DNA of 64,000 nucleotides from Acetonema longum DSM 6540 (GTDB lineage Bacteria; Bacillota; Negativicutes; Sporomusales; Acetonemataceae), in NCBI RefSeq assembly GCF_000219125.1, contig NZ_AFGF01000234.1:1-64000 (forward strand). Direction: 5' to 3'. Position numbers and translations under genes: made by a program. Numbering within the stretch: position 1 is the stretch's first letter; every line of letters starts with the position of its first letter. This document shows positions 21,473-44,647 of this stretch, piece by piece. Under the pieces are notes generated by a model. It was not told the DNA's origin. It did no database searches and worked only from the letters and a program-made list of their open reading frames with translations.

Positions 21473-21556
21473 CGAATTGCAAATTAAGTCATGTTTTAAA
21501 AAGGCGTTGGATTGAAGGATTATTGCCATATCAAAGTGAAGTGGAGGGACGATTCG

Positions 21557-22912
21557 GTGGCAAACGAAAAAGAGCGGGATTTAGCCGCAAGCATCCTGGC
21601 CCTGGCTGGCGGTAAAGAGAATATAAGCGGCGCATCCTATTGTATGACCCGCCTGCGCCTGACCCTGGCGGATATGGCCAAGGCTGACGCGACACAAGTG
21701 CGGGCCACTGCCGGAGTCTTGGGGGTCGTGGAGTCAGCCGGTCAACTCCAAGTCATCCTGGGACCGGGAGTCGTCAACAAGGTGGCCGCGGAATTCGCCG
21801 CTCTGGCCGGCATCACTCTGGGCGAAGTGCAGGACATCAAGGCAACTTATGCCGACCGGAACCATACTCCCTTTAAACTGTTTTTGCGCAAGCTGGCCGG
21901 TATTTTTATTCCCCTCATCCCGGCCATCGTGGCTTCCGGCATGCTGGCCGGCCTGACTAATATAGCCATTCGCGGCGGCGCCGATCCACAGGGTACCCTG
22001 GTATTGCTGCTTAACGCCATGGGCTGGGGCATTTTCGGCTATTTAGCCATTTTTGTCGGCATTAATACTGCCAAGGAATTCGGCGGCACCCCGGCCATGG
22101 GCGGCTTGGCGGCGGTGCTTCTGATTAATCCGGCCATTGCCAGTATCAAGATTTGGGATCAGGCTTTGGTGCCGGGGCGGGGCGGCTTGGTCGGCGTGCT
22201 GTTGGTAGCTTGGTTTATGACTGTGATCGAAAAGAGATTGCGGCGTTATGTGCCGGATGTCATTGATATCATTGTCACTCCGACCTTATCTCTGCTAATT
22301 ACCGGTTTTGCCACTTATTACGTGCTGCAGCCGGTGGGCGGCTGGTTGTCGGAAGCTATCGTCTGGTTTTTTAAGACACTGATTGGCTTGGGCGGGCCAA
22401 TTGGCGGTTTTGTGCTGGCCAGTACCTTCCTGCCCGTGGTTATGGCTGGCTTGCATCAGGGCCTGGTGCCGGTGCATATGGAATTTTTAAATACCCTGAA
22501 GGAGAATCCGCTGCTTCCCATCCTGGCTATGGCAGGTGGCGGGCAGGTGGGCGCTACCATGGCGGTGTACTTGAAGACTAAGAATGCCCGGCTGAAAAAT
22601 GTCATCAAAGGCTCATTGCCTGTAGGTATCCTGGGTATCGGTGAACCGTTAATTTTTGGCGTCACCCTGCCGTTGGGACGTCCCTTCATTACCGCTTGTA
22701 TCGGCGCCGGCTTTGGCGGCGCCTGGCAGGCTATGACTAAAGTATCCACCGTGGGCCTGGGGGTGTCGGGGTTGCCCTTGACCTTCTTGATTACGCCGGG
22801 CAATGTGGTAAATTATTTGATCGGTATTTTGATCGCCTATGCGGGTGGATTTGTTGTGACCTGGCTGGTTGGCTTCGATGACCCTAAAGATATGGACGAA
22901 AAACAGGTGTGA
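21557..22912 (+). CDS. murP: PTS EIIBC transporter, N-acetylmuramic acid type
   Basis: This phosphotransferase-system permease takes up and phosphorylates a sugar. The EIIB domain is at the N-terminus with the phosphorylated cysteine in SYCMTRLRLTL (Cys29 from this start). The EIIC membrane domain follows with about ten helices and motifs PLIPAIVASGMLAGL, GLHQGLVPVHME and GIGEPLIFGVTLPLG. There is no EIIA domain, as in MurP, which borrows EIIA-Glc. The GTG at 21557 is chosen because GGAGGG is eight bases upstream; a TTG at 21512 is possible. The three genes that follow (mupG, murQ, nagA) identify the substrate as MurNAc or MurNAc-GlcNAc. Confidence 0.9.
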   Translation: MANEKERDLAASILALAGGKENISGASYCMTRLRLTLADMAKADATQVRATAGVLGVVESAGQLQVILGPGVVNKVAAEFAALAGITLGEVQDIKATYADRNHTPFKLFLRKLAGIFIPLIPAIVASGMLAGLTNIAIRGGADPQGTLVLLLNAMGWGIFGYLAIFVGINTAKEFGGTPAMGGLAAVLLINPAIASIKIWDQALVPGRGGLVGVLLVAWFMTVIEKRLRRYVPDVIDIIVTPTLSLLITGFATYYVLQPVGGWLSEAIVWFFKTLIGLGGPIGGFVLASTFLPVVMAGLHQGLVPVHMEFLNTLKENPLLPILAMAGGGQVGATMAVYLKTKNARLKNVIKGSLPVGILGIGEPLIFGVTLPLGRPFITACIGAGFGGAWQAMTKVSTVGLGVSGLPLTFLITPGNVVNYLIGILIAYAGGFVVTWLVGFDDPKDMDEKQV

Positions 22913-22923
22913 GGGCATCAATC

Positions 22924-24009
22924 ATGATCGAAAAAGGTATATCCCTATATGCCGGCATGGGCTATTCGCCGGAACAATGCTTTGAGTATCTGAGCAAGGC
23001 ACGGCAGGCGGGGTTTTCCCGCCTGTTCACCTCTTTGCACATCCCGGAGGCGGATGAAACCTCTCTGCTGGCGGAGTTCCGGCTGATAGCCGGTGAGGCC
23101 GGACGACTGGGTTTTGGCATTACCGCCGATATTTCCCCCCGTGCATTTCGGCTGCTGGGGGCAAGTTTGGACCATTTAAAGCCGGTACGAGAACTGGGCA
23201 TTGATGTAATCCGGCTGGATTTTGGCTTCGATGCGGCGGCAGTGGCGGTTTGGACAAAAACCAGCGGCCTGGCGGTGGAACTGAACGCCAGCACCATGGA
23301 TGAAAAACTGTGGCAGGCTATTCTGGCCGCCGGGGCTGACACTGCTAAATTGCGGGCCTGTCACAATTTTTATCCCCGGCCTGATACCGGACTGGGATGG
23401 GAACTATTCGTCAAACGATCGGCTCTGTTCCGAGAGCAGGGCATTCCCCTGGCTGCTTTCATTCCATCGCTAGTGAATCCTCGCGGGCCTATTTATGCCG
23501 GACTGCCTACTTTGGAACGTCACCGCGTCTTGGGCCTGGTACCGGCTGCTAAGGAACTGATCTACAGCGGCCTGGTGGATTGCGTCCTGTTCGGTGATCC
23601 TCTGGCGGATGCCAAGGAACTGGCGGCAGTGGGGCAAATCGATCCTGATTGCGTCGAACTGGAAGTGGTGCCGGAGGATGCATTAACGGCTGTGGAGCAG
23701 GAGATCCTGTTTGCCGTACACGCGAATCGCCTGGACCCGGGCGAATCTGTCATTCGGTCCAGTGAAACCCGCAACCTGGCGAAAGAGGCGATTAAGCCGC
23801 GAAAAACGCAGATGAGAGAAGCGGGAAACGTGACCATTGATAACGAACTGTACCGCCGCTATATGGGCGAACTGCAGGTTATAATAAAGACGCTGCCGGC
23901 TGACGAGCGAGTGAATGTAGTGGCCCGGATAGCGCCGGAAGAAATGGGACTGTTGCAGTATATCCAGCCAGGCCGGACATTTTGTTTCCGTCCCGGTCCT
24001 GACCGATAG
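22924..24009 (+). CDS. mupG: DUF871 protein, probable 6-phospho-N-acetylmuramidase
   Basis: This is a 361-residue TIM-barrel protein of the DUF871 family. It begins IEKGISLYAGMGYSPEQCFEYLSKARQAGFSRLFTSLHIPE and contains KLRACHNFYPRPDTGLGWELF and GLVDCVLFGDPLA, all family hallmarks, with a cyclophilin-like C-terminal part ending LQYIQPGRTFCFRP. In Staphylococcus aureus the homologue MupG hydrolyses MurNAc-6P-GlcNAc after PTS import. The position between murP and murQ strongly supports the same role. The ATG at 22924 is favoured by GAGGG upstream; a GTG at 22909 overlaps the murP stop. Confidence 0.88.
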   Translation: MIEKGISLYAGMGYSPEQCFEYLSKARQAGFSRLFTSLHIPEADETSLLAEFRLIAGEAGRLGFGITADISPRAFRLLGASLDHLKPVRELGIDVIRLDFGFDAAAVAVWTKTSGLAVELNASTMDEKLWQAILAAGADTAKLRACHNFYPRPDTGLGWELFVKRSALFREQGIPLAAFIPSLVNPRGPIYAGLPTLERHRVLGLVPAAKELIYSGLVDCVLFGDPLADAKELAAVGQIDPDCVELEVVPEDALTAVEQEILFAVHANRLDPGESVIRSSETRNLAKEAIKPRKTQMREAGNVTIDNELYRRYMGELQVIIKTLPADERVNVVARIAPEEMGLLQYIQPGRTFCFRPGPDR

Positions 24010-24018
24010 GAGGAGCCG

Positions 24019-24921
24019 ATGAATCTGGAAAAACTTTTAACTGAAACCCGCAACTCCAATACTCTGGACATTGACCGTCTGTCCGCCTTTGAAATCGTAA
24101 CTAAAATCAACCGGGAAGACCGTCAAGTCCCCCAGGCAGTGAAAAAAGTTCTGCCTCAGATCGCCCAGGCAGCAGACTGGACAGTAGCGGCTATCCGGGA
24201 TGGGGGGCGGCTGTTTTACCTGGGAGCCGGCACCAGTGGCAGGCTGGGGATTTTGGATGCTTCCGAATGCCCTCCCACCTACGGTACGTCACCGGAATTA
24301 GTTCAGGGACTGATTGCCGGCGGTCAGACGGCAGTGTTCCGGGCAGTGGAAGGGGCGGAGGATTCTCTTACCCTGGCAGAGGAAGACTTGCGTCAGCGGC
24401 AGTTGAGCTCCAACGATATCGTTGTGGGGATTGCCGCCAGCGGGCGAACGCCCTATGTCATCGGCGGACTGAAATATGCCAGCGGCATCGGTTGCCGGAC
24501 AGTGGCTGTTACCTGTTCACCGGCATCCGAGATGGAGGCAGCGGCCGCTCTGACGATCTGTGTACAGGTTGGCCCGGAAGCCGTTACCGGCTCCACCCGG
24601 ATGAAGGCCGGCACAGCCCAGAAACTGGTGCTGAATATGATTTCCACCGCCGCCATGATTCGTCTGGGCAAGGTATATTCCAACCTGATGGTGGATGTGC
24701 AGGCCACCAACCAGAAACTGATTGAGCGGGCTAAACGGATCGTGATGATGGTTACCGGCGTGGAGCGGCAGCAGGCTGAAACCGTACTGGTTCAAGCCGG
24801 CGGTTCGGTTAAAATCGCGATTACCATGCTGCTGGGGCAGATGTCCCGTGAAGAAGCGGAACAGGCTTTGGCTGACAATGAAGGATTTGTTGCTAAAGCT
24901 ATAGAAAACTGTCGAAAGTGA
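24019..24921 (+). CDS. murQ: N-acetylmuramic acid 6-phosphate etherase
   Basis: MurQ cleaves the D-lactyl ether of MurNAc-6P to give GlcNAc-6P and lactate. The SIS-fold phosphate-binding loop is GAGTSGR (residues 69-75). The catalytic residues correspond to Glu83 in SECPPT and to Glu114/Asp115 in GAEDS, and the family segment GSTRMKAGTAQKLVLNM is present. At 300 residues the length is standard. AGGAGG precedes the ATG and the gene is ten bases after mupG. Its product GlcNAc-6P is the substrate of the NagA encoded next. Confidence 0.97.
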   Translation: MNLEKLLTETRNSNTLDIDRLSAFEIVTKINREDRQVPQAVKKVLPQIAQAADWTVAAIRDGGRLFYLGAGTSGRLGILDASECPPTYGTSPELVQGLIAGGQTAVFRAVEGAEDSLTLAEEDLRQRQLSSNDIVVGIAASGRTPYVIGGLKYASGIGCRTVAVTCSPASEMEAAAALTICVQVGPEAVTGSTRMKAGTAQKLVLNMISTAAMIRLGKVYSNLMVDVQATNQKLIERAKRIVMMVTGVERQQAETVLVQAGGSVKIAITMLLGQMSREEAEQALADNEGFVAKAIENCRK

Positions 24922-24963
24922 AAGAAAAACTGAAGCCATATTGAGTACCGGAGGCGGATTATT

Positions 24964-26259
24964 ATGACAGGTTTGATTCGAAATGCCGCTATAGTCTGTC
25001 CCGACCGGGTTACTGAACCAAGCTGGTGCTTGGTCCAGGACGGTCGGATCGCGGCTTTGGGCCGGGAGGGAGATTGCTCAGCCAGCAGCTTTGTAACAGA
25101 GACCGTTCAAAAAGGTTCAGCTGCTAGGCGCGACGAGGATTACGCCGCGCCGCGTACAGAGCGTACGCAAGCAAGTAACCGCAGGAGCAACGACGCAGAC
25201 GGGCCTTTTTCAACGGTCGCCTGTGACTGGCAGGTGGATTGTGAGGGCGACTGGCTGATCCCCGGCCTGATTGATCTGCATGTGCATGGAGCCGGCGGGG
25301 TTGACACGATGGACGCCCGGCCGGACAGCATGGAAAAACTGGCCGCGACCTTGGCCCGTTTGGGAACGACGGCTTTTTTGGCCACCACTATGTCTGCTCC
25401 GCCAGACGCTATAGCAGCGGCATTGTATTCTGCTGCTGATTATCAGCGGCATCCCTCATCCCATGGTGCGGAATTGTTGGGCATCCATATGGAAGGCCCG
25501 TTCCTGGCGACAGCCTATAAGGGCGCTCAGGCCGCAGCAGGAATTTATCCGCAGGGGGAAGGGGCTGCGCAGCAGCTGGCTTCTCTCTTGGAGGCTTACC
25601 CCGGTCTGGTCCGTGTCCTGACTTTGGCGGTGGAGCGGTCTGATGCGCGGGATTTGATCGAAATTTGCAAAGGGCAGAAAGTCATCCCCTCGGTGGGGCA
25701 CTCGGCTGCCGAGTATGAGGTCATGCGACAGGCCGTAGCCTGGGGTCTGCAGTCGGTGACTCATGCCTTTAACGCCATGCCCGCCATTCACCACCGCCGG
25801 CCGGGGCTATTGACCGAGGCCCTTGTGAATCCGGCGGTACATATGGAACTGATCGCTGACGGGGTCCACATTCATCCGGCTGTGCTGGGTGTCGTCCTGG
25901 GTCTGAAACCGCCTGACAAGGTATCGATTGTGTCTGACGGCACCAGGGCGGTGGGTATGCCCAACGGCGAGTACGAACTGGGCGGCCAGATGACCTTGGT
26001 CCGGGATGGCGTGGCGACCCTGCCTGACGGCACGATTGCCGGCAGCGCCTTTTCATTGCTGGCGGGGGTGAAAACCCTGGTTACCACTCTGGGCTATACC
26101 CTACCGGCGGCTGTCCGCTATGCCAGCCTGAATCCGGCCAAACTGCTGGGAGTAGCCGATCGTTTAGGAAGTATCGAAGCCGGCAAGGTAGCAAACCTGG
26201 TACGGCTGGACCGGCAATTGACTGCGATTTCGGTTTGGGTCAAAGGACAGGCGGTATAG
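24964..26259 (+). CDS. nagA: N-acetylglucosamine-6-phosphate deacetylase with an in-frame repeat insertion
   Basis: NagA removes acetate from GlcNAc-6P. Metal and catalytic motifs are present: HVH at residues 106-108, GIHMEGPFL, HSAAEYEV, HAFNAM followed by HHRRPG, and the catalytic Asp in VSDGTRA. At 431 residues it is about 40 longer than usual. The excess is residues 46-85, encoded by a palindromic repeat (25101-25218) inserted between the small N-terminal beta domain and the start of the barrel (WLIPGLIDLHVHG). The insert keeps the reading frame and is rich in Arg, Asp and Ala, unlike the family. The enzyme may still fold, as the insertion precedes the barrel. It completes the murP-mupG-murQ-nagA salvage unit. 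Confidence 0.93.
   Translation: MTGLIRNAAIVCPDRVTEPSWCLVQDGRIAALGREGDCSASSFVTETVQKGSAARRDEDYAAPRTERTQASNRRSNDADGPFSTVACDWQVDCEGDWLIPGLIDLHVHGAGGVDTMDARPDSMEKLAATLARLGTTAFLATTMSAPPDAIAAALYSAADYQRHPSSHGAELLGIHMEGPFLATAYKGAQAAAGIYPQGEGAAQQLASLLEAYPGLVRVLTLAVERSDARDLIEICKGQKVIPSVGHSAAEYEVMRQAVAWGLQSVTHAFNAMPAIHHRRPGLLTEALVNPAVHMELIADGVHIHPAVLGVVLGLKPPDKVSIVSDGTRAVGMPNGEYELGGQMTLVRDGVATLPDGTIAGSAFSLLAGVKTLVTTLGYTLPAAVRYASLNPAKLLGVADRLGSIEAGKVANLVRLDRQLTAISVWVKGQAV
25101..25218 (-). repeat. Palindromic repeat element, copy inside nagA
   Basis: This is a 118-base element with 15-base terminal inverted repeats, GACCGTTCAAAAAGG on the left and the complement GACCGTTGAAAAAGG on the right (one mismatch). 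Read on the minus strand it begins GACCGTTGAAAAAGG, then has CTGCGTCGTTGCTCCTGCGG and ends in AACCTTTTTGAACGGTC, the same order as the copies at 35.7, 36.4 and 44.3 kb. It has no stop codon in the nagA frame and adds residues 46-85 to that protein. Confidence 0.85.
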
Positions 26260-34994: not shown

Positions 34995-35669
34995 ATGTTG
35001 CCAATACGAATCATGATAGCTGACGATCATGCCCTATTGCGGCAAGGGATCAAAAAAGTGCTGGAACTCGAGGATGATCTGACGGTCATTGCTGAAGCAT
35101 CTGACGGTGAGGAAGCCATAAAGAAAGTGGAGGAATTTGAGCCGGATATCCTTTTGCTTGACATTAACATGCCCAAGCTCAACGGGCTGGGCGTGGCAAA
35201 AGCCCTGAAGGCTGCGGACAATAAAACAAACATTATCATCCTCAGCATCCATGATGATGAGCACTATGTTCTGGAAGTGATTAAATCCGGTGCAGCCGGT
35301 TATCTCTTGAAAGATATTGAACCCGGCATGCTGGTAAACGCCATCCGGACAGTTTTTGGCGGCGAGCCTTTTATCTATCCCACCCTGGCCAAGCGTCTGT
35401 TCAGCGAACTCAATCGCCTGGATAAAAGCAAGCGCTATGAAATGGCCCGCAATGCCCGCGGCAGTGCGGAACGGCTTACAGCCCGCGAAATTGAAGTGCT
35501 GCAATTGATCGGTCAGGGCCTGAGCAATCATGATATGGCACAGCGCTTATACTTAAGCGAAAAAACCGTAAAAAACCACCTAACCAACATATTCCGCAAG
35601 ATCAATGTGGCTGACCGGACTCAGGCGGTACTTTACGCCATACGCCACAAAATCGTTCATTTAGAGTAG
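34995..35669 (+). CDS. NarL/FixJ-family response regulator
   Basis: The receiver domain (residues 1-120) begins IRIMIADDHALLRQGIKKVLE, with the phosphoacceptor Asp in ILLLDINMPKLNG and the conserved Lys in YLLKD. A LuxR-type HTH follows: ERLTAREIEVLQLIGQGLSNHDMAQRLYLSEKTVKNHLTNIFRKI. It is of the DegU/DegU-like kind. No histidine kinase gene is next to it, so it is an orphan within this window. AAGGAAG precedes the ATG at 34995; a GTG at 34989 is also in frame but too close to that site. Its stop codon abuts a repeat element that may serve as its transcription end. Confidence 0.93.
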   Translation: MLPIRIMIADDHALLRQGIKKVLELEDDLTVIAEASDGEEAIKKVEEFEPDILLLDINMPKLNGLGVAKALKAADNKTNIIILSIHDDEHYVLEVIKSGAAGYLLKDIEPGMLVNAIRTVFGGEPFIYPTLAKRLFSELNRLDKSKRYEMARNARGSAERLTAREIEVLQLIGQGLSNHDMAQRLYLSEKTVKNHLTNIFRKINVADRTQAVLYAIRHKIVHLE

Positions 35670-35895
35670 GGCTGTTGAAAAAGCCCATCTGCGTCGTTAC
35701 TCCTGCGGGCGCGCGTTCGACGTATCCTGCAAACGTACAGTCTCACGCGCGTCCTCGTCGTGCTATCAGAATTGTGACTTTTCGGGAGAGAGGTGGTAGC
35801 GGATGGTTTCTCCTAAGCCGAAAAGTCACCTGAATTCTTCAGCATGGCAACGCAGGCGTTGCTCTTACCTGGCATCTGGACCTTTTTGAACGCTT
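35669..35895 (+). repeat. Palindromic repeat element, expanded copy with a nested palindrome
   Basis: It starts GGGCTGTTGAAAAAGCCC followed by ATCTGCGTCGTTACTCCTGC and ends with GGACCTTTTTGAACGCTTCC, matching the other copies at both ends, but it is about 227 bases instead of 90-118. The middle holds another inverted repeat, GTGACTTTTCGG (35774-35785) and CCGAAAAGTCAC (35818-35829), each flanked by AGAATT or its complement. This looks like a second small element inserted into the first. The first base overlaps the stop codon of the response regulator gene. The remaining 80 bases before the next gene show nothing. Confidence 0.75.
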
Positions 35896-35976
35896 CCTGT
35901 TTGACATGAAGTCCCTTCACCAAACGATCCGCTCCGGAATATAGTATCCTATCCCAAGCAAAGGGGGTAGGGTATT

Positions 35977-36417
35977 TTGTTTTTCCCGTATGCGGTGAGT
36001 GTGATGCTCCTGTCACTGGCGATTTATGGATTTTGGCACCTAATTTTGGAGTGCTGGGTTTGGTACATAAAACCCAGGATGAGCAAATTACCCAGTGTCA
36101 GTTTATTATTGGTGGTAAAAAACCACGAACAGGATATTGAATTTATGCTGCGGCATATTATAAGAAAGATCGAATGTTGCGCTATCCATCCGGACCTGGT
36201 GGTAGTGGAAAATGGCTCTACCGACTTAACGCCGCATATTCTCGGCCGGTTTGTCGGTGAATATCACGCCTTGCGGGTGCTTTACCTGCCAACCGAAGAG
36301 CGAACGGTAGCCGCGGCTCTGCCTTTATGCCGGGGAGGAGCGGTCTACGTTTTCGACATGGTAAACCGTCTTACTCCGGAGGAGTGCCTCGCGGCGCTGG
36401 ACGACATATTTTGCTAG
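35977..36417 (+). CDS. Short membrane-anchored glycosyltransferase 2-like protein
   Basis: This 146-residue protein has an N-terminal membrane helix (YAVSVMLLSLAIYGFWHLILECWVW), then the beginning of a GT-A fold: PSVSLLLVVKNHEQDIEFMLRHIIRKIE and LVVVENGSTDLTPHILGRF. It lacks the DXD metal motif and acceptor half, so it is either a truncated glycosyltransferase or a distinct short family. The start is TTG 35977 with AAGGGGG ten bases upstream. The TAG stop lies directly at the beginning of the next palindromic repeat, raising the possibility that the repeat truncated it. Confidence 0.65.
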   Translation: MFFPYAVSVMLLSLAIYGFWHLILECWVWYIKPRMSKLPSVSLLLVVKNHEQDIEFMLRHIIRKIECCAIHPDLVVVENGSTDLTPHILGRFVGEYHALRVLYLPTEERTVAAALPLCRGGAVYVFDMVNRLTPEECLAALDDIFC

Positions 36418-36507
36418 GGGCCGTTGAAAAGGCTCATCTGCATTGTCAGGTCTGCGAGAGCGCGTTTCCTCGGCCTTCCTGGCATCTGAACCTTTTTGAA
36501 CGGTCCC
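36418..36507 (+). repeat. Palindromic repeat element, short copy
   Basis: This 90-base copy begins GGGCCGTTGAAAAGGCTC, then ATCTGCATTGTCAGGTCTGC, and ends CTGAACCTTTTTGAACGGTCCC. The ends are inverted repeats of each other and match the ends of the nagA copy. It starts directly after the TAG stop of the upstream gene. Confidence 0.85.
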
Positions 36508-36541
36508 AGGTTCGAGGTTGAAGATAGATTCTGCAATATTC

Positions 36542-44245: not shown

Positions 44246-44263
44246 ACAAAACGACCTTTCGAG

Positions 44264-44355
44264 GAGACCGTTGAAAAAGGCTCATCTGCGTCGTCAGTCC
44301 TGCGAAAAGGCAAGAGGTTCTCTGACCTGGCATATGAACCTTTTTGAAAGGTCTC
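44264..44355 (+). repeat. Palindromic repeat element, copy upstream of the HD-GYP gene
   Basis: This 92-base copy starts GAGACCGTTGAAAAAGGCTC, then has ATCTGCGTCGTCAGTCCTGC, and ends ATGAACCTTTTTGAAAGGTCTC. Its ends are inverted repeats matching the nagA copy. It sits 19 bases upstream of the HD-GYP start, in the gap before the flagellar genes. Confidence 0.85.
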
Positions 44356-44647
44356 AGATTCGAGACTACCGATGGATTTGACTCCTTCAGGACATAGTAT
44401 AGCGCAGAATGGGCCGAATGAAAAGGGAGAACATTGACGAGGGGTGTCGGTTCGCCGATATTATCGAAGATTTTCAGAAATAGCGGTATAAAATAATCTA
44501 AAAATCCCGAAAAAAGATAGGTTTTCCTTAAAATTAGGACTAATGACCTAGGCAAAAAAGACAGTAAAATTGTATAATGAAACAAATAAGATGATACTCT
44601 GATTATGAACGTGCGGGACCGATAGGATGGAATGGGAGGAACGAGGT
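44356..44647 (+). promoter_or_regulatory. Upstream region of the flagellar block with a possible promoter
   Basis: There is no gene in this AT-rich 290-base stretch. TATAAT at 44573-44578, with TAGGCA 18 bases upstream (44549-44554), is a possible vegetative promoter for yvyF and the genes after it. No convincing sigma-28 (TAAA...GCCGATAA) promoter is visible. Confidence 0.4.

Follow-up and report, generated by a model that had tools for sequence, protein, structure and literature searches.

An in-frame palindromic repeat in nagA of Acetonema longum, probably a MITE moved by IS1182-type transposases

The nagA gene of Acetonema longum DSM 6540 contains, within its reading frame, a copy of a palindromic repeat that is present in high copy number in the same genome. 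We consider it likely (probability about 0.8) that this segment is a copy of a non-autonomous palindromic MITE, most likely moved by IS1182-family transposases, which enters genes occasionally. In the window (the whole stretch of 64,000 nucleotides that was analysed) nagA is an ORF of the plus strand at 24964..26259, which encodes an N-acetylglucosamine-6-phosphate deacetylase of 431 aa (TIGR00221; nearest structure 2vhl). Genes for a PTS permease, a DUF871-like protein, a murQ-like protein and nagA lie together at 21512-26259 as an apparent MurNAc/GlcNAc catabolic cluster. The repeat spans 118 bp of the plus strand (25101..25218) and codes for residues 46-85, TVQKGSAARRDEDYAAPRTERTQASNRRSNDADGPFSTV. 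The 15-base inverted-repeat ends described in an earlier sequence-only reading were confirmed: the left arm GACCGTTCAAAAAGG (plus strand, 25101..25115) and the right arm GACCGTTGAAAAAGG (25204..25218, minus-strand reading) match at 14 of 15 bases, and the palindrome starts with GACCGTTCAAAAAGG at 25101 and ends with CCTTTTTCAACGGTC at 25218. The frame is open and free of stop codons throughout, as had also been claimed, and the encoded residues precede the HVH motif at 106-108. The RNA fold of the segment was calculated at -52.7 kcal/mol (z -5.4). A covariance model of the repeat, built from 26 copies, matched nagA at 25089-25230 with an E-value of 3.2e-28.

The TIGR00221 profile matched the nagA product with an E-value of 1.6e-81, the match being confined to residues 90-428. 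No counterpart of residues 46-85 was found in an alignment with six NagA-family proteins from related genomes or loci, and in a tblastn search of 80 NagA loci across many phyla most matches began at query residues 76-99. This supports the proposal that these residues are foreign to the family; a homologous 40-residue segment was looked for in unrelated NagA proteins, and NagA elsewhere lacks it. The loop is ~45-46 residues longer than in the orthologues, that is, 5-6 residues beyond those coded by the palindrome. The AlphaFold2 model of NagA shows an intact fold, with confident N-terminal strands and a confident barrel, whereas residues 38-83 have pLDDT values under 50 (about 30); the repeat-coded residues model as a disordered loop. 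The best structural match to the model was the NagA of B. subtilis (2vhl, TM 0.81). H106, H108, E177, H246, H267 and D325, which we take to be the metal and catalytic residues expected for the NagA family, are invariant across the alignment. No second nagA was found in the genome of the strain.

The three intergenic copies noticed earlier in the window, at 35.7, 36.4 and 44.3 kb, were all recovered by the covariance model (E-values of 8e-18 to 3e-15). One is a long form (35669..35901, minus strand; model match 35677-35784) directly after the stop codon of a gene for a LuxR-like regulator. The other two are short forms, also on the minus strand, at 36416..36516 (model match 36407-36517), flanked by the 3' ends of two ORFs that converge on it, and at 44258..44364 (model match 44254-44365). 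In the 4.32-Mb draft genome we counted 128 perfect matches to the end motif GACCGTTSAAAAAGG and none to its reversed control, far more than chance would give, which contradicts the notion that the repeat is confined to this place; BLAST-type matches to the repeat numbered 44. Draft contigs C68, C69, C83, C161, C135 and C196 of this genome (G000) end in or beside a repeat copy, so that assembly breaks may hide additional copies. Related repeats were detected by covariance-model search in 42 of the 60 genomes of the class, several of them with at least 52 copies. No Rfam covariance model matched the window, and the part of the literature covered by our search yielded no publication on the repeat family.

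The repeats measure 58-350 bp overall, with clusters near 90, 125, 235 and 345 bp, and have terminal arms and no gene of their own. The arms covary between copies, 14 of 27 pairs being changed on both sides. Most copies of this genome extend ~38 bp on the left, starting with GGAGTCTGTTGCAAAACTCAT, which is the counterpart of the right end GGAGACCGTTGAAAAA in an outer inverted repeat; this left part was not detectable at the nagA copy (p 0.58) and is present at two other in-gene copies described below, those in a DUF2229 gene (p ~0.01) and in ispDF (p ~0.03). Many copies in G001 and G012 (L097, L241, L243, L273, L274, L277) have a small left-part hairpin like GCGTGTTTCAAAAAACACGC and represent a further subtype. 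An open frame in at least one of the six was found in 43 of the 46 copies of 100-140 nt. The open frame of the nagA copy is nothing special among repeat copies, and the sequence of the repeat would therefore allow translation without special selection.

The normal site of the repeat is the 3' end of a gene, in one preferred orientation. In the A. longum genome, a gene (an ORF of at least 80 codons) runs into the right end of 50 of the 84 full-length copies and has its stop codon at -9..+7 relative to that end; 16 of these 50 genes stop at the repeat's own TGA, and their products mostly end in ..DR or ..NR. In relatives, 29 of 81 copies are placed in this way. The nagA copy lies in the middle of the gene, in the orientation opposite to that of the usual gene-end copies; its flanks, ACAG and CTGT, could be the halves of a target palindrome. 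Two copies (G000:C50:17243-17382 and 21578-21711, L204) lie amid Wood-Ljungdahl-like genes (acsB, cooC and cooS-like). Another (G000:C26:2503-2658, L442) is located between genes for an acyl-ACP-synthetase-like protein and an LplT-like transporter, in the frame of the latter; it may provide a new N-terminus or start for the transporter, or may merely be open spacer.

In-gene copies, which the sequence-only reading had suggested counting, were counted among copies sampled from the genome. A first census of 108 copies, mostly chosen by intact end motifs, gave nagA as the sole in-gene copy, since copies with altered arms were missed; later sampling from the covariance-model list added ispDF and a DUF2229 gene. 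Copies predicted to be translated within genes are thus 3 of ~127 (about 2%; at least 127 inspected, fragments counted), a minimum, as more may exist. A single ORF on contig C170 runs from a complete IspD (2-223) through a linker coded by the repeat to a complete IspF (278-431). About 50 linker residues are absent from the fused IspDF of four relatives, two of which have a few residues instead; in G001 ispD and ispF are separate genes. On contig C293 a DUF2229 ORF has a clean 55-residue insert inside the domain, compared with five relatives; its 165 bp correspond to about one complete repeat. The arms of the ispDF and DUF2229 copies are near-perfect, and all three inserts have the same orientation and a common entry frame, xTVQxGSxAR. 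In nagA, ispDF and the DUF2229 gene, former spacer DNA is therefore predicted to code for protein. No second ispD or ispF was found in this genome. Since its only detected IspDF, an enzyme of isoprenoid synthesis, is the enlarged one, that protein must work if the strain relies on the MEP pathway, and it is probably essential; we infer that the enlarged proteins are functional. The purR-, spmA- and lplT-side ORFs of this genome were also considered as translated copies and were read as upstream extensions of neighbour genes. The long ORFs across copies in relatives look, on ORF reading alone, like antisense shadows or spacer ORFs.

Mobility of the repeat was evident from sister species of sister genera, which are not close relatives of A. 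longum. G002 and G009 have a copy behind a gene, G016 and G020 have a short junction at the same place, and G013 has a different copy there in the opposite orientation. The proposal that a mobile repeat has become protein is supported by this presence and absence, by the high copy number, by the relatives lacking the segment and by the in-frame entries into at least three genes. Whole terminator hairpins of 16-38 bp are duplicated on both sides of copies of a subtype in the sister genus and some other genera (G002, G009, G018, G008 and G001). In the duplication test 12 of 89 list entries were above threshold vs 0 in controls, although one of the 12 is a contig-edge artefact and two are repeat listings of the same loci. 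Insertion into the hairpin loop was discarded for the terminator copies, because wider flanks show duplication of the whole hairpin instead.

An IS1182-family element in G013 (NF033551, E 2e-130), which terminates in CAGGCTGTCGACAAAG/CAGCTTGTAGACAAAG, resembles the repeats of that genus: it has 16-base ends in common with them and likewise shows a duplicated hairpin, AGCTCCCGGAGAAATCCGGGAGCT. An IS1182 relic in G015 carries the left end of the A. longum type (20 of 20 bases, adjoining CTAG), at that one end only. A complete IS1182-family element with the ends GGGCCTGTTGACAA was also observed in G020 (C76:21371-21742, L336), between the arms of a GC-rich inverted repeat and near the place where the sister genome G002 has two repeats. 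The A. longum genome itself gave just three IS1182-type matches: two are relics, and the third is an intact transposase whose ends differ. No end of the A. longum repeat type was found on any of them. Duplication of target bases, which had been envisaged for the repeat, did not exceed controls at the copies of this genome. IS1272, a member of the IS1182 family, inserts into hairpins, in most cases terminators and in one case a coding region, with partial deletion of the target and no duplication (PMC4923244), and the absence of duplications at the A. longum copies fits this element. We infer that the A. longum subtype, too, would be mobilised by an IS1182-type transposase.

The most probable course of events is as follows. 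A MITE of ~90-350 bp, most often ~120 bp plus the 38-bp left part, would depend for its movement on IS1182-family transposases that act in trans and target hairpins or palindromes. Because intrinsic terminators are hairpins behind stop codons, copies would accumulate at the 3' ends of genes in one orientation. From time to time a copy would enter a palindrome inside a coding sequence. Because the repeat is rich in G+C and usually has an open frame, such a copy would be tolerated, and would become protein, if its length restored the reading frame and it fell in a surface loop or a linker, as proposed for nagA, ispDF and the DUF2229 gene. We extend this only tentatively, and with more doubt than belief, to the idea that new protein segments arise recurrently in the Negativicutes from IS1182-type MITEs that seek hairpins, and that entry at palindromes in loops and domain linkers has lengthened housekeeping enzymes more than once, including an essential bifunctional one.

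The repeat might instead be a selected RNA element of gene 3' ends, such as a terminator or mRNA stabiliser, with accidental copies inside genes. The tight placement at stop codons, the single orientation, the covarying arms with their double changes and the strong fold would all be expected of such an element, but its presence across sister species is patchy, the sister-genus repeats have IS1182-type ends and hairpin duplications, and the retained U-G pairs favour a strand other than the one usually present in the mRNA. This explanation seems unlikely to us, although copies may have a function following insertion. Movement by a Y1 (RAYT) transposase, as for REP-like elements, would agree with palindromic units lying behind genes in very high copy number. 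No Y1_Tnp (PF01797) match was obtained in G008, G016, G018 or G020, however, despite 18 to at least 52 copies of the repeat; a co-occurring RAYT flanked by the repeat is largely absent, the repeat exceeds REPs in length and target duplications the size of a hairpin occur at some copies, all of which makes this origin very improbable. Finally, the length of the NagA loop varies among relatives at the position of the insert in the alignment, as it should if the 40 residues were an ancestral loop that resembles the repeat by chance; given a match to the repeat model over the whole length (E 3e-28) and the lack of the segment in all NagA relatives compared, we attach next to no weight to this idea.

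Mobile palindromes that code for protein have been known chiefly from Rickettsia. The present bacterium, which belongs to another phylum, presents the same outcome in three enzymes, one of them probably essential, and a plausible mover and a simple reason for the placement at gene ends are now at hand. How non-coding repeats become protein can thus be tested through the transposase, the target rule and the empty sites of sister species.

Judged by their descriptions, the Rickettsia palindromic elements (RPEs) are the closest precedent for translated palindromes. They too are palindromic repeats, of ~100-150 bp, and lie both in intergenic DNA and, in frame, within unrelated genes, metabolic enzymes included, and a review of RPEs suggested that the same could have occurred in other prokaryotes (PMC10969869, PMC3767692). 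The likeness to RPEs drawn by the sequence-only reading holds as a mechanism, a palindromic repeat lying between genes and also in frame inside them, but not in frequency, since nearly half of the first described RPEs are in genes (PMC10969869) and here 3 of ~127 copies are; the host belongs to a different class, and a likely IS1182-type mobiliser and the habit of gene 3' ends are added. In-frame gene fusions have also been described for some bacterial MITEs (PMC10969869). The repeats have features of IS1182-type MITEs, being short and gene-free, with inverted-repeat ends and insertion at hairpins or palindromes. IS1182-family elements such as IS1272 and TnSha1 likewise insert at hairpins and terminators, without sequence specificity and several per hairpin (PMC4923244). 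Unlike them, the repeats described here lack a transposase; the fate of the target differs too, with loss of part of it in IS1272 and duplication of the entire hairpin (16-38 bp) in the sister-genus subtype. Compared by description, Correia, ERIC, QMITE1, BOX and RUP are likewise short non-autonomous elements with inverted repeats, but differ in target habit. REP/BIME elements with their RAYT are also palindromic, located behind stop codons and high in copy number, whereas the present repeat is longer and occurs where a Y1 transposase was not found.
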